54,377 nucleotides of DNA, from positions 1 through 54,377 of the forward strand of contig JARHZW010000104.1 of NCBI GenBank assembly GCA_029264685.1, read 5' to 3'. The position numbers and the translations under genes were made by a program. Of this stretch, positions 43,359 through 47,876 are shown one piece after another; position 1 is the stretch's first letter, and each line of letters begins with the position of its first letter. Under the pieces are notes generated by a model. It did no database searches. It was not told where the DNA came from and was given only the letters and a program-made list of their open reading frames with translations. Source of the DNA: Candidatus Limivicinus sp. (GTDB lineage: Bacteria; Bacillota; Clostridia; Oscillospirales; Oscillospiraceae).

Positions 43359-44156
43359 TTACTTTGAGAGAAGCACCTGATCGTTTTCCAGCTGCGTACC
43401 GGACAGCTCCGCAAACATATCCATAAGGTACTGCTTGGTAAGGCGCTTTTTCTCTTCTCCTTTAATGTCAAGAATGATTTTTCCCTGATTCATCATTATG
43501 AGCCGGTTTCCGTGGCTGATAGCATCGCTCATGTTATGAGTTATCATCATTGCCGTAAGCCCGCCCTCTTCAACGATCCTGTCGGAAAGCTCAAGCACCT
43601 TTTGCGCCGTACCGGGGTCAAGAGCGGCTGTGTGCTCGTCTAAAAGCAGAAGCTCAGGCTTCCTTAATGACGCCATCAAAAGGGTGAGTGCCTGCCGCTG
43701 ACCGCCTGAGAGCAGACCGACTTTAGTGCTCATCCTGTCCTCAAGACCCAGTCCCAGCGGCTTTAAAAGCTCTCTGTAGCGTTCCTTTTCCACAGCTGTC
43801 ACACCCCAACGGAGACTGCGGCGCTGTCCTCGTCTCAGCGCAAGCGCCAGATTTTCCTCCACCTGCATATTAGGCGCAGTTCCCATCATGGGGTCCTGAA
43901 AAACACGGCCTATAAGCGGGGCACGCCTGTGCTCCGGCAGTGCGGTAATATCTGTGCCGTGGAGAATGATTCGCCCTCCGTCTATCGGCCATACACCTGC
44001 AACAGCATTGAGCATAGTGGATTTTCCTGCACCGTTTCCGCCTATTACGGTTACAAAATCGCCCTCAGCCAAATGGAGGTTAAGGTCATTCAGGACATTT
44101 TTTTCGTTTATTGTACCCTTATTAAAGGTTTTGCTTATGTGTTCCAGTTTAAGCAT
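43359..44156 (-). CDS. ABC transporter ATP-binding protein (TrpZ/LivF-like)
   Basis: ATPase subunit of 265 residues. Walker A is GGNGAGKST, the signature motif is LSGGQRQ, and Walker B is LLLLDEHTAALDP. HNM in ITHNMSDA is the switch histidine. It energises the permease encoded just upstream, whose gene it overlaps by 8 bases. Together with the ABC_sub_bind-type binding protein it matches the TrpXYZ type of Firmicutes aromatic amino-acid importer. The leader attenuator upstream of the operon points to tyrosine as the substrate. Confidence 0.92.
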   Translation of the reverse strand: MLKLEHISKTFNKGTINEKNVLNDLNLHLAEGDFVTVIGGNGAGKSTMLNAVAGVWPIDGGRIILHGTDITALPEHRRAPLIGRVFQDPMMGTAPNMQVEENLALALRRGQRRSLRWGVTAVEKERYRELLKPLGLGLEDRMSTKVGLLSGGQRQALTLLMASLRKPELLLLDEHTAALDPGTAQKVLELSDRIVEEGGLTAMMITHNMSDAISHGNRLIMMNQGKIILDIKGEEKKRLTKQYLMDMFAELSGTQLENDQVLLSK

Positions 44157-45099
44157 TCTGCTCAGTACCTTTCTTTTTTAGTTTACGAAAAGAAGCTGCG
44201 GATTGCTCACGGAGATGGGGAACGGCAAGAAACAGAGCAACGATCACAGCAGTAAAAAGCTTCAGATCGTTTGAATTCAGTTTAAGCCACAGCACTACTA
44301 TGACAACAAGGTAGTAAATAATTCCGCCTGCAACGGTAAACGCAAATACCCCCAGATAATTCAGATGCCGCCCAAATATTCCACGGCCCAAAACCTCTCC
44401 TATGATAACTGCGGCAAGGCCGATTACTATTGCGCCTCTGCCCATGTTTATGTCAGCAAAGCCCTGATACTGAGCCATAAGACCGCCGGAGAGAGCCACA
44501 ATGCCGTTTGAAAGGCCCAGACCTAAGATTTTCATTGAATTTACATTTATACCCAGAGCGCTGCTCATGCCGGCGTTGCTGCCTGTGGAACGCATGGCGG
44601 AGCCCTGTTCCGTTCCGAAGTACCAGTATAAAATCAGAACCAGAGCCAGAGAAAAAACAAAACCCGTAGCTATGGCGGCAGAAATACTGCGGGAGGATAA
44701 AATGAGGTCAAATTTATCGACACTTACTGCCTTATTGGCAGACATTCCCATTATCCTGAGATTGACGGAGTAGAGGGAAAACTGCGTCAGGATTCCCGCT
44801 AAAATTATGGGTATACCCAGTTTTGTGTGCAGAAAACCGGTGCAGAATCCGGCAAGGATTCCGGCGAGAACAGCCGCTGTAATCGCAAACCATGCAGGAT
44901 AGCCAGCCAGTATAAGCATAACCGTAACTGCTCCGCCGCAGGTAAAGGAACCGTCCACCGTCAGGTCAGCTACATCCAGAAGCCTGAATGTAATATATAT
45001 ACCCAGCGCCATAAGGCCCCATATAAGTCCCTGAGCTATACCGCCGGGTAGATTTTTTATGAGCTTTAACAGGCTCAAAGAGGCAAAATATGCTTCCAT
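44149..45099 (-). CDS. ABC transporter permease (BPD_transp_2 / TrpY-like)
   Basis: Permease of 316 residues with eight or more hydrophobic helices and the LivH/LivM-type layout, including FRLLDVADLTVDGSFTCGGA and STGSNAGMSSALGINVNSMK. The true start is taken as ATG 45099, with AAGGAG about 13 bases upstream, 22 bases after the binding-protein stop; a longer frame from 45150 would overlap that gene. It forms the membrane channel of the importer. The C-terminal tail is basic. Confidence 0.87.
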   Translation of the reverse strand: MEAYFASLSLLKLIKNLPGGIAQGLIWGLMALGIYITFRLLDVADLTVDGSFTCGGAVTVMLILAGYPAWFAITAAVLAGILAGFCTGFLHTKLGIPIILAGILTQFSLYSVNLRIMGMSANKAVSVDKFDLILSSRSISAAIATGFVFSLALVLILYWYFGTEQGSAMRSTGSNAGMSSALGINVNSMKILGLGLSNGIVALSGGLMAQYQGFADINMGRGAIVIGLAAVIIGEVLGRGIFGRHLNYLGVFAFTVAGGIIYYLVVIVVLWLKLNSNDLKLFTAVIVALFLAVPHLREQSAASFRKLKKKGTEQNA

Positions 45100-45121
45100 A
45101 CTGACTTTACATCTCCTTAAT

Positions 45122-46105
45122 TCAATCTGTATCAACTGCCCGAAAATCATTCGGAACGCTGATGTTCAAAGTCTTGCATATATCGGGGTTGTATACCTTT
45201 TCAAACTTGGGTGAAAAACGGATTTCCATCCGGCTTATATCCTCGCCGTTTAAAAGGATTTCGCAGGCCATTCTGCCTGTCTCAAAGCCTATGTCGTAGT
45301 AGGAAATGGACAGAGCGGCGGCACCGAAAACGGCGCATACCAGTTCTTCGCCGCAGATTATGGGTACGCCGGCGTTTAAGGCCACATTGTTAATGGCCTC
45401 GCCGCAGGAAGCGGCAGTGTTATCTGTGGGAATGTACAGTACATCGCTCTCTTCACAGGCGGCAGCTGTAACAGCGGCCACATCATTGGAGTCCGAAAAG
45501 CTGAACTGACGGACTGTGTACCCCATCTGAGTCAGCAGGGGAGTTATTGCTTCCACTTGAAAAAGGGAGTTCGGCTCACCTGAGCAGTAGAGTATGCCAA
45601 CTGTGCGGGCGTCGGGAAACAGCTCGTTGAGTATCTGAGCCTGACCGTCAATGGGAGCAAGGTCGGAAGTTCCGGAAATGTTTCTGCCGGAAACGCCGGT
45701 CCACTTTTCTTCCCCGAGAGCGGTGCCGTAATCTGTGATTGAGGTGCCCAGAACGGGAATTTCAGCGGTTGCCGAGACAGCGGCCTGAAGAGCGGCTGTG
45801 GAATTTGCCATTATTAAATCCACACCGTCACTTACAAACTGACTGCATATTACAGAGCAGGTGGCAGAATCCCCAGAAGCATTCTGGAAGGAAATGTTAA
45901 CCCTGTCTCCCAGACCTTCTTTGAGGGCATCGGTGAAGCCTCTGCTTGCCTCGTCAAGGGCGGGATGCTGTGCAAGCTGGCATATGCCCACGTTAAATAC
46001 TTTCCCATCGCTGCCGGAAGGGGCGGATTCCGGTGCGGCGGTCCCGCAGGCGCCCATGGAAAGGGCAAGGATAAGGGCGAGAATTATGGCTGTGATTTTC
46101 TTCAT
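45122..46105 (-). CDS. ABC transporter substrate-binding lipoprotein (ABC_sub_bind / TrpX-like)
   Basis: Lipoprotein of 327 residues with a signal ending in lipobox SMGAC at about residue 19. The mature part has the two-lobed LacI-like binding fold of the ABC_sub_bind family, with ICQLAQHPALDEASRGF, VGILYCSGEPNSLFQVEAI and DVLYIPTDNTAASC as typical segments. ATG 46105 is preceded by AAGGAGG; the frame opening at 46135 lies in the attenuator. This is the first structural gene after a tyrosine-codon leader peptide and terminator, so tyrosine (or a related aromatic) is the predicted ligand. Confidence 0.9.
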   Translation of the reverse strand: MKKITAIILALILALSMGACGTAAPESAPSGSDGKVFNVGICQLAQHPALDEASRGFTDALKEGLGDRVNISFQNASGDSATCSVICSQFVSDGVDLIMANSTAALQAAVSATAEIPVLGTSITDYGTALGEEKWTGVSGRNISGTSDLAPIDGQAQILNELFPDARTVGILYCSGEPNSLFQVEAITPLLTQMGYTVRQFSFSDSNDVAAVTAAACEESDVLYIPTDNTAASCGEAINNVALNAGVPIICGEELVCAVFGAAALSISYYDIGFETGRMACEILLNGEDISRMEIRFSPKFEKVYNPDICKTLNISVPNDFRAVDTD

Positions 46106-46133: not shown

Positions 46134-46167
46134 AAAAAAGCCGCCCGGAGCAGTCCGTGCGGCTTTT
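46134..46167 (-). terminator. Attenuator terminator in the leader of the ABC operon
   Basis: In transcript sense, AAAAGCCGC-a-CGGA (46167-46154), loop CTGC, TCCG-g-GCGGCTTTT (46149-46136) and a run of six T residues in all. There is no other gene upstream on this strand to terminate: the neighbouring gene beyond is divergent. It lies 28 bases before the binding-protein start, so it must act within the leader. Confidence 0.85.
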
Positions 46168-46200
46168 AATCCTATGCTTATGTTAATGGGCAGCACAAAC
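46153..46200 (-). promoter_or_regulatory. Predicted antiterminator pairing
   Basis: In transcript sense, GTTTGTGCTGC (46200-46190) can pair with GCCGCACGGAC (46163-46153) at 10 of 11 positions, two of them GU. The second segment is the 5' arm of the terminator at 46134-46167, so the two structures exclude each other. Paired by hand; energies not computed. Confidence 0.65.
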
Positions 46201-46229
46201 TACTATTACCTTGTAACAAAGTAATAGTA
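46201..46229 (-). promoter_or_regulatory. Leader hairpin over the Tyr codons
   Basis: TACTATTAC (46229-46221 in transcript sense) pairs perfectly with GTAATAGTA (46209-46201) around an 11-base loop. The first arm is exactly Tyr codons 3-5 of the leader peptide; the second contains its stop codon. The stem can extend so that GCAT upstream pairs with GTGC of the antiterminator arm, linking the two alternatives. Confidence 0.75.
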
Positions 46230-46262
46230 ATAATATGCAACTACAAAATTAACAAAAGGCAT
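46206..46262 (-). CDS. Tyrosine-rich attenuation leader peptide
   Basis: An 18-codon ORF, MPFVNFVVAYYYYYFVTR, starts with ATG at 46262-46260. AAGGGAG (46279-46273) lies 10 bases upstream. Codons 10-14 are TAT TAT TAC TAT TAC, five tyrosines in a row, then TTT (Phe). The stop TAA is at 46208-46206. A hairpin, an antiterminator and a terminator follow before the ABC transporter genes. Low charged Tyr-tRNA should stall the ribosome on these codons, cover the first hairpin arm, free the antiterminator and let transcription continue; ample tyrosine lets the ribosome reach the stop and the terminator form. The codon run is seen directly; the mechanism is inferred from the classic trp/phe/his attenuators. 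Confidence 0.85.
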   Translation of the reverse strand: MPFVNFVVAYYYYYFVTR

Positions 46263-46279
46263 TATATTATTTCTCCCTT

Positions 46280-46306
46280 AAAGTGATGCACTGACTTTAT
46301 CACTTT
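46280..46306. promoter_or_regulatory. Inverted repeat just upstream of the leader ribosome site
   Basis: AAAGTGAT (46280-46287) and ATCACTTT (46299-46306) with an 11-base centre. It overlaps the -10 of the nearer promoter, so it could be an operator in addition to attenuation. Confidence 0.45.
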
Positions 46307-46322
46307 CTGGTAATGAAGTCAA
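46294..46322 (-). promoter_or_regulatory. Candidate promoter P2 of the attenuated ABC operon
   Basis: Minus strand TTGACT (46317-46322), 17-base spacer, TAAAGT (46294-46299). It would give a short untranslated lead of about 25 bases before the leader peptide. Confidence 0.5.
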
Positions 46323-46574: not shown

Positions 46575-47876
46575 ATGAAAAAAAAGAAGAATCTTGCGTT
46601 GAGAATTGTACTGAGTGTTCTTGGAACATTTGCGGTACTTGGCATTGCTGGTTTCTGCTTCTACATGGCATGGGAAAAAGCGCCTGACCTTGATCCTGTT
46701 GCACCAAACACAAAGCCTGTGGAAATCGGCGGGAAAAAGGACAAAAACAGCGACGGAAAAGCCTTTGATACTCAGCGGCAGGACGGAATCTATACCTTCC
46801 TGCTGGTAGGAAACGACGACGGTACAGGCAACACGGACACTATAATGGTGGGTAAGCTGGACACCAACGAACATAAAATAGATGTTGTGAACATTCCACG
46901 AGACACCCTTATAAATGTGGACTGGTCGGTAAGAAAGATAAACTCGGTGTACTGGGGCTCTAAAAACAGTGGTGGAAACGGAATAGATTCGCTTAACCGC
47001 CATGTGAAGAATATTACCGGATTTGAGCCTGACTGCTATGCAATTATAGATCTGGGCGTGTTTATAGATGTTATTGATGCCTTGGGTGGTGTAGATTTTG
47101 ATGTTCCCGTTCCAATGCATTATGAGGACTCTGCACAGAACCTTTATATCAACCTTGATCCGGGGATGCAGCATCTGGACGGTTATGCAGCCATGGGGCT
47201 GTGCCGCTTCAGACATGACTACGCAAACGGTGACTACGGTCGTATAGAAATGCAGCAGAAATTCCTTAAATCCTGTGCAGAGCAGTTTATAACCTTGGGA
47301 AATGTGCCTAATGTTTCAAAAGTTGTAAAAATTCTTGCAAACGGTATGGATACCAATCTAAGCGGTGCTAATATCGCCTATTTTATTCGTCAGGCGCTGA
47401 AATGCCCGCCTGAGAATATAAACTTCCATATGGTTCCCAGTGAAGGAGCAGGAATAGGCGGACTTAGCTATTCTGTTATAAACCTTTATTCATGGATAGA
47501 TATGCTCAATGAGTGTCTTAACCCCTATGAAAGTCCTATAGGTGCTGAGAACCTTGATATAGTGTACAAAAACGGCGGCGGCTATGCTGCAACCACCACC
47601 CTTGCAGGAGACTGGTATTACAATTCAAGCCGCTCCTCCGGAAGCAGTGCCCCTGTTGTTTCGGAGCCTGTGCCGGAAGAGCCGGAGGGACCCACCATAA
47701 TCGTTGTGCCTTCAACACCGCCTGATCAGGGCGGAACTGAAAATCCCGAGATACCGGTTGCACCGCCTGCCCCGGAGGAGACGGAAACCCCTGTGGCGCC
47801 TCCGCAGCCTGATACAGGAGAGCCCACTGTACCGGATGTACCGGAGCCCAATCCCGATAACGCCGTATTCGGCTGA
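46575..47876 (+). CDS. LytR-CpsA-Psr (LCP) family cell-wall glycopolymer ligase
   Basis: LCP enzymes attach teichoic acids or capsular glycans from lipid carriers to peptidoglycan, outside the membrane. This one has 433 residues and one N-terminal helix (about 8-30). The catalytic domain shows FLLVGNDD, NTDTIMVGKLD and VNIPRDTLINV, the conserved Asp/Arg segments, and CRFRHDYANGDYGRIEMQQKFL, the second arginine motif. The last ~95 residues are a Pro/Glu-rich low-complexity tail, probably wall-spanning, with repeated P-E-x-P units. The ribosome site is GGAG/AAGG just upstream. Confidence 0.93.
   Translation: MKKKKNLALRIVLSVLGTFAVLGIAGFCFYMAWEKAPDLDPVAPNTKPVEIGGKKDKNSDGKAFDTQRQDGIYTFLLVGNDDGTGNTDTIMVGKLDTNEHKIDVVNIPRDTLINVDWSVRKINSVYWGSKNSGGNGIDSLNRHVKNITGFEPDCYAIIDLGVFIDVIDALGGVDFDVPVPMHYEDSAQNLYINLDPGMQHLDGYAAMGLCRFRHDYANGDYGRIEMQQKFLKSCAEQFITLGNVPNVSKVVKILANGMDTNLSGANIAYFIRQALKCPPENINFHMVPSEGAGIGGLSYSVINLYSWIDMLNECLNPYESPIGAENLDIVYKNGGGYAATTTLAGDWYYNSSRSSGSSAPVVSEPVPEEPEGPTIIVVPSTPPDQGGTENPEIPVAPPAPEETETPVAPPQPDTGEPTVPDVPEPNPDNAVFG

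Follow-up and report, generated by a model that had tools for sequence, protein, structure and literature searches.

A stretch of 54,377 nt (hereafter the window; positions 1–54,377 of the forward strand of contig JARHZW010000104.1, assembly GCA_029264685.1) from Candidatus Limivicinus sp., a member of the Oscillospiraceae, carries at 46262–46134 on the minus strand, 5' of a TrpX-like ABC importer operon, an element that can be read directly in the sequence and is very probably a ribosome-mediated transcription attenuator: it would control a tyrosine importer in response to how far tRNA-Tyr, and possibly tRNA-Phe as well, is charged. Moreover, the same device appears, as judged from related genomes, to control the aroF-tyrA-aroB operon in many relatives. 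The original prediction had interpreted the element as a ribosome-mediated attenuator, which is supported by the present analysis. It is no singular oddity, being one of a family in part of the class; model matches were obtained in about 290 sampled genomes, part of them inspected. The leader ORF, the Tyr run, the predicted mutually exclusive helices, the terminator and the target genes are established at the level of sequence and comparison.

Leader anatomy and alternative helices

All parts of the leader lie on the minus strand. A Shine-Dalgarno sequence AAGGGAG (46273–46279) precedes an ORF of 18 codons plus stop (46206–46262; ATG at 46262, TAA at 46208–46206) encoding the peptide MPFVNFVVAYYYYYFVTR, in which five consecutive Tyr codons (46221–46235), also seen in homologues, are the putative control codons; re-reading of the sequence confirmed the positions of the ribosome-binding site, the ORF and the Tyr run given in the original prediction. 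On the basis of folds and covariation, segment 1 (46217–46241), which is made up of the Tyr codons and the upstream GCATA, is assigned to the 5' arm of a 1:2 (protector) hairpin, segment 2 (46190–46204, core AGTTTGTGCTGC at 46201–46190) to the 3' part of this hairpin and the left arm of the antiterminator, and segment 3 (46149–46163) to the right arm of the antiterminator, which overlaps the 5' arm of the terminator. The intrinsic terminator 3:4 (46134–46167) has its arms at 46167–46154 and 46149–46136 and a U-run at 46139–46134, the end of which is 28 nt apart from the importer start codon at 46105. Three genes follow, encoding by domain search a TrpX-like substrate-binding protein (45122–46105, minus strand, PF04392; predicted by comparison to bind tyrosine), an ABC permease (44149–45150, minus strand, PF02653) and an ABC ATPase (43359–44156, minus strand, PF00005). 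The divergent neighbour at 46575–47876 on the plus strand is a LytR/CpsA/Psr-family protein.

The minimum-energy fold of the 165-nt stretch consists of the long segment 1/2 hairpin and the terminator, with an energy of -50.1 kcal/mol against -35.3 ± 4.1 in 200 shuffles (z -3.6), and the stretch without segment 1 folds unremarkably (z -1.4, 19 of 200 shuffles being equally good). In this fold the 1:2 hairpin has an upper stem of 15 bp (46231–46217 with 46213–46199) and a lower stem in which GCATA (46238–46234) pairs with TGTGC (46197–46193). Thus the hairpin is longer than the 9-bp stem proposed in the original prediction; the leader stop codon does lie within the opposite, 3' arm, as proposed. 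By reading, 11 of the 12 positions of AGTTTGTGCTGC (46201–46190) pair with GCCGCACGGACT (46163–46152), including two G-U pairs, where complementarity to the terminator 5' arm at 10 of 11 positions had been claimed. The helix energies in the window are -22.0 kcal/mol for 1:2, -16.9 for 2:3 and -19.0 for 3:4, and segment 2 can pair with the 5' arm of the terminator in place of segment 1. In our judgement, covariation and the fact that a model trained on importer leaders only (R1) picks the element at tyrosine-synthesis genes appear more decisive than the shuffle z-scores.

Covariation was assessed in two alignments, whose cells come from related sequences and are not independent events. Alignment A1 contains 56 of 64 importer leaders, with the near-duplicates L019, L047, L054, L055, L059, L061, L065 and L082 omitted and the divergent, misaligned L072, L073, L075 and L083 kept, which lowers the counts; A2 contains 58 of 107 leaders (64 importer and 43 further ones), near-duplicates and divergent ones being omitted. 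In A1 the antiterminator 2:3 is the best-kept helix, with 96.2% of cells paired and 13 double-change cells against 2.5 in shuffled alignments, followed by the terminator 3:4 (87.6%; 62 against 21.3) and by 1:2 (83.1%; 64 against 25.3). In A2, which covers importer and aroF leaders, the values are 93.0% for 2:3 (60 double-change cells against 18.2), 90.6% for 3:4 (69 against 21.4) and 94.2% for the upper stem of 1:2 (23 against 8.2). When the partners were slid by 1–3 columns, pairing was at most 62.3% in all six tests. A few measures stayed within or near the shuffle range, namely the further pair types of 1:2 in A1 (value reached by 38 of 500 shuffles), the pairs with double change (188/500) and the further types (110/500) of 3:4 in A1, and the pairs with double change of 2:3 in A2 (29/500). 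In addition, the native 2:3 duplex has a mean energy of -20.1 kcal/mol compared with -16.2 for between-species swaps and is the stronger one in 55 of 64 leaders. The parts are present and conserved in the trp/phe-type layout that had been proposed, with three alternative helices that covary and would be mutually exclusive as in a classical attenuator. The presence of a strong terminator could also be read as an ordinary terminator beside an incidental small ORF; such an arrangement needs no antiterminator, yet 2:3 is the best-kept helix of the importer leaders and the device is found again in front of other aromatic genes, and we regard this explanation as hardly credible.

For conservation within the genus, the importer protein was searched in 102 same-genus genomes, 81 of which matched at E ≤ 1e-20, some to distant paralogues only, and 74 importer loci (L001 and L011–L083) were fetched, leaving out contig-edge fragments in G024, G026, G040, G086 and G087. 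A readable leader ORF is present in 64 of the 74 loci, none is seen in eight (L027, L030, L069–L071, L074, L076 and L080), and two are cut by contig ends, namely L016, in which Tyr codons and the hairpin are still visible, and L068. The 64 leaders, 15–34 aa in length (up to 38 among further leaders), comprise 1272 residues with 273 Tyr, 180 Phe, 168 Arg and 1 Trp. According to the original prediction, homologous leaders without the Tyr codons or without the terminator would speak against it. At least one Tyr is found in 63 of the 64 leaders, at least three in 58 and at least four in 53, and a hairpin with a T-rich tail lies 3' of the leader in all 64 (the script's best pick, three being re-set afterwards); the exceptions are the eight of 74 loci without any leader and four Phe-dominated leaders, L077 (1 Tyr, 5 Phe), L079 (2, 5), L081 (1, 4) and L083 (0, 6). 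Tyr accounts for 21.5% of the leader residues compared with 3.2% in seven window ORFs. Of the 219 cells that are readable in four codon columns beyond the upper-stem arm (columns 43–54, of which only 54 is in that arm and 43–44 are in the lower 1:2 stem), 128 are Tyr, again against 3.2% in the seven ORFs; judged from these columns, the Tyr codons exceed what the main stem requires. The gap from the stop codon to segment 2 is exactly 4 nt in 36 of 64 leaders and 1–12 nt in 49, and in the other 15 the stop codon comes only after segment 2 has begun. These 15 leaders (e.g. L012, L013 and L020) read into or through segment 2 and mostly end in an SLCCK-like motif, which is a by-product of the pairing segment being read in another frame. 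Antiterminator pairing is weak in L072, L073 and L075.

Ribosome position and the amino acid sensed

The proposed course of events is as follows. When tyrosine is scarce, the ribosome behind RNA polymerase would stall on the Tyr codons and cover segment 1, leaving segment 2 to pair with segment 3 while segment 4 has yet to be transcribed, and with 2:3 paired no terminator would form and the importer genes would be transcribed. When tyrosine is plentiful, the ribosome would reach the UAA and cover segment 2, and 3:4 would terminate transcription at about 46134. If the leader is not translated, 1:2 would form, and the default would be termination. For RNA up to the terminator loop, the antiterminator in the window has a calculated probability of 0.98 whichever of the five Tyr codons occupies the A-site, and of 0.00 both at the stop codon and without a ribosome. 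Averaged over the leaders, the values are 0.84 for a ribosome on Tyr codons (63 leaders), 0.09 at the stop codon and 0.30 without a ribosome (64 leaders each), and 0.67 near the start. Shuffling the leader codons raised the value without a ribosome from 0.30 to 0.76, with an increase in 57 of 64 leaders, which suggests that the codon order protects segment 2. Antitermination is predicted as well with the A-site on neighbouring Ala, Phe or Val codons, and therefore specificity would rest on which codons are slow, the structure alone being no proof of tyrosine. In the full-length RNA at equilibrium the terminator is favoured in every state (means 0.80–0.88; with the ribosome on Tyr, 0.80 on average and 0.895 in the window). 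On this account a working switch must be kinetic, with the decision falling while the RNA is still being transcribed.

Tyrosine as the likely signal is supported by the codon content, the target genes, the tyrosine-type site of the importer, the lack of a detected TyrA and the Trp T-boxes on the paralogues. The candidate leader, a short ORF with a ribosome-binding site, lies upstream of the operon, its control codons appear cognate to the pathway that follows (aroF-tyrA or a tyrosine-type importer), and an intrinsic terminator is predicted before the first gene. A joint aromatic or mainly phenylalanine sensing is the alternative to be taken most seriously, since the leaders contain on average 2.81 Phe codons (64 importer leaders), 3.82 (38 aroF leaders) and 4.76 (51 order and class leaders), Phe dominates four importer leaders, a copy from the class search lies ahead of chorismate mutase/prephenate dehydratase, and the A-site on Phe codons antiterminates in silico with a mean of 0.81 over 58 leaders. 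However, Tyr outnumbers Phe in the importer leaders (273 against 180 residues), and the window itself has five Tyr in a row, a host without a detected TyrA and a tyrosine-type importer site, so that we hold joint aromatic or mainly phenylalanine sensing to be rather unlikely. It could also be imagined that the nascent peptide itself is the sensor, arresting the ribosome with free ligand in the manner of TnaC and not through charged tRNA, as ligand-dependent arrest peptides are described (PMC8429421) and the peptides have a loose FAxAYxxYYF pattern in common. This is very improbable to us: apart from the Tyr/Phe codons and the RNA-pairing segments, the peptides vary widely in length and sequence, their C-terminal residues vary, and in 15 of the 64 importer leaders the frame extends across the pairing segment.

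Importer substrate, promoter palindrome and paralogues

The substrate-binding protein scores 209.1 bits with the TrpX model NF041285, below the curated cut-off of 390; the paralogue with a UGG T-box is also below it (231.9 bits), and the cut-off does not separate the two. Its nearest solved relative is CD0873 (6HNI/6HNJ/6HNK; E 1.4e-53), described as a tyrosine-binding protein in which Glu-263 contacts the tyrosine hydroxyl and Tyr-279 excludes tryptophan (PMC6816091). The window protein keeps these specificity residues, with E253 and Y269, counted along the alignment, aligned with Glu-263 and Tyr-279. Of the leader-linked same-genus proteins that cover the two sites, 62 of 62 keep both residues (64 were aligned, L078 being without both positions and L082 without the second), as do 7 of 7 further leader-linked proteins from family and order, 6 of 6 Lachnospiraceae relatives and 11 of 11 others, leaderless copies among them. 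Among 14 tryptophan T-box paralogues the first position is Ala in 10 and Glu in 4, and the second is Tyr in all; in three paralogues that carry another T-box, Tyr stands in both places. Because the residues are kept in leaderless relatives and the Glu in 4 of the 14 Trp paralogues, they fit tyrosine yet are not exclusive to leader-controlled copies. The protein is predicted to bind tyrosine in the manner of CD0873. The idea that Phe-dominated leaders mark Phe-type sites found no support, as L077, L079, L081 and L083 also have Glu and Tyr; in these four loci Phe stands largely or wholly in place of Tyr in the leader and the binding site is still of tyrosine type.

Prephenate dehydrogenase (TyrA, PF02153) was not found in the window's genome, which is 97.3% complete, and was found in 14 of 14 control genomes. 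The genome's own aroF (C100:24022) has no attenuator by eye and no tyrA beside it. As no TyrA was detected and aroF stands alone, the host is predicted to need imported tyrosine, i.e. to be a tyrosine auxotroph. The same aroF is N-terminally short.

The importer promoter may carry a second layer of control. In the window, an imperfect palindrome ACTTCATTAC-N6-GTGATAAAGT (46319–46294, minus strand) lies between and over the hexamers of the predicted promoter TTGACT-17-TAAAGT (46294–46322, minus strand). Across 63 upstream regions, chosen by a pattern fixing TTGAC and AAA[GT]T, the consensus is a palindrome ACTTTAnCAC-N6-GTGCTAAAGT overlapping the promoter, with an arm agreement of 8.22/10; none of 500 shuffles in which arms were exchanged between loci reached this value (mean 7.94, maximum 8.17). 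A degenerate form of the pattern has one match genome-wide in the window's genome, at the window's promoter; the palindrome is kept without a leader in two loci, L027 and L030; and the genome encodes one TrpR-family protein. The palindrome is a probable repressor site. A repressor at this operator could on the same grounds (the consensus with its arm agreement, the persistence in L027 and L030 and the TrpR-family protein) be taken as the main control and the attenuator as a minor fine-tuner, but the palindrome of the window is imperfect, the leader anatomy is maintained by covariation, and most aroF promoters are without the palindrome by eye, L138 and L139 being partly similar. We consider a leading role of the repressor improbable. 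In Lachnospiraceae, L004 (position 464), L005 (2816), L006 (2750), L007 (2801) and L008 (2789) have CACTTTA-N6-TAAAGTG, and L009 has an ambiguous base there. This is the published HisR consensus (PMC9413887), and its spacing differs from that of the genus palindrome; L004–L008 have the HisR operator consensus despite tyrosine-type binding-site residues.

T-boxes, which the original prediction names together with TRAP as the usual control of aromatic amino-acid genes in Firmicutes, have not been given up by the lineage, five matches being found in the window's own genome, two of them above the cut-off. The search for distant importer paralogues gave 37 rows, one of them the own genome's; 13 (L087–L099, 27–30% identical) were fetched together with the own L002, and 23 were left out. 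All 13 have a T-box match, 7 above the Rfam threshold, and in the 13 and L002 the specifier position reads GAA-UGG (alignments cover the ten best and L181); for the own-genome paralogue at C41, the T-box likewise shows UGG there. The closer paralogues L084–L086 have T-boxes with GAAGUUC, and their specifier is probably Phe (UUC), the register being uncertain. We are slightly inclined to assume that the importer paralogues of the genus are addressed by a Tyr leader, a Trp T-box and probably a Phe T-box, and that the tyrosine importer is additionally subject to a TrpR-like operator; two sensors at a time are seen in single genomes, e.g. the leader and a Trp T-box in that of the window. These T-boxes on paralogous importers are what would favour reading the element itself as a T-box or another direct RNA sensor of a known family. 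At the element, however, no Rfam family reaches its threshold (the best weak match is an sRNA family with 22.7 bits against 60) and the T-box model RF00230 has no match, and we give this reading next to no weight beside a translated leader. In eight aroF loci scanned there was no Rfam match either.

Distribution ahead of aromatic genes and relation to known systems

Model R1 matched 87 of the 102 genus genomes at E ≤ 0.01, many of them twice, where the weakest matches may be due to chance. Inspection covered 20 regions with such extra matches and the loci returned by the family, order and class searches, a subset of all matches. Of the 20 regions, 18 precede aroF by 143–215 nt, with tyrA and aroB following (an example of such a leader is MKHFAFASYYYYFTAKLR), and the other two are an importer-type leader on a short contig (L177) and a chance match (L178). 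Domain searches identified DAHP synthase, prephenate dehydrogenase and dehydroquinate synthase in the operon of L161. Within the family, 139 of the 350 sampled genomes, belonging to 51 of 106 genera, had an R1 match at E ≤ 1e-3, and among 28 inspected loci, two from the window's genus, 20 precede aroF-tyrA and 8 trpX. Another model, R2, gave no match in a control of 36 leaderless loci, and among four divergent leaders it weakly recovered L072 and L083 and missed L073 and L075. At E ≤ 1e-4 it matched 60 of the 394 genomes sampled across the order, including 44 from other families, and 33 of the 391 sampled across the class, including 32 from other orders; the match rate drops outside the family. 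The 57 newly returned order and class loci, 9 of them from the same family, comprise 53 ahead of aroF, one ahead of trpX (L192), one ahead of tyrA (L235), one ahead of the gene for chorismate mutase/prephenate dehydratase (pheA, L224) and one chance match, L234 from the class search, with neither a leader nor an aromatic gene, which gives 56 of 57 with aromatic targets. At L224 1501–2773, where the attenuator lies ahead of chorismate mutase/prephenate dehydratase, the leader contains YFYFYFYF. The codon tally used 51 of the 57 loci, dropping L192 as an importer, L234 as chance, and L191, L194, L195 and L201, in which the match was off the true start codon; the last four were later read and are aromatic leaders too. 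In the window's own genome, the importer copy of the attenuator is the only one found: a second match of R1 (G000:C106, E 0.006) and one of R2 (G000:C90, E 0.0018) turned out on reading to have no Tyr leader. No copy of the element was found in seven named Lachnospiraceae/Clostridia genomes searched.

The control of aromatic amino-acid genes in Gram-positive bacteria is the textbook domain of T-boxes and TRAP, the latter type being characterized by tandem GAG/UAG repeats and the TRAP protein. A covarying tyrosine attenuator suggests that the main tyrosine-synthesis operon can be controlled in yet a third way. It also opens a route from sequence to tyrosine sensing and auxotrophy in bacteria that are mostly known through their assemblies, and for importer annotation the leader codons and T-box specifiers together predict the aromatic amino acid of each paralogue. 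In the classical trp/phe/his attenuators of Gammaproteobacteria, of which the his case is described in PMC9413887, a leader peptide with cognate codons is combined with the helices 1:2, 2:3 and 3:4, a terminator and a stop codon before or in segment 2. The element resembles them in the run of cognate codons, the three helices, the intrinsic terminator and the stop just before or in segment 2, and differs in its tyrosine codons, the Bacillota-type host with T-boxes, the importer as target and the lack of an Rfam leader match. The literature searched, a scope with most subscription papers outside, contained no description of a tyrosine leader-peptide attenuator. The kind of mechanism is known, and there appears to be no account of it with this amino acid, these targets, this lineage and this breadth in the searchable literature.

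Among the systems reported, tyrosine synthesis in the B. cereus group is described as under T-box control (among the papers PMC1262725, PMC5951980 and PMC2494555). The Firmicutes leader-peptide attenuators described for His (PMC2965389; PMC9413887, which describes a his leader-peptide attenuator) and for Leu in S. aureus (PMC5794164) likewise employ ribosome-mediated attenuation in Gram-positives in place of T-boxes, whereas they serve other amino acids and operons. The uORFC-13-1 motif (24 sequences from Acholeplasma and environmental sources, at least one Phe codon; PMC8632094) also combines a uORF and a terminator ahead of aroF, but its description, as far as available, mentions neither a Tyr run nor an importer. 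Finally, trpXYZ of Streptococcus suis encodes an importer of a related family and is likewise under amino acid-specific attenuation; there, however, a T-box RNA binds tRNA-Trp (PMC9382623), whereas a translated leader would be the sensor here.
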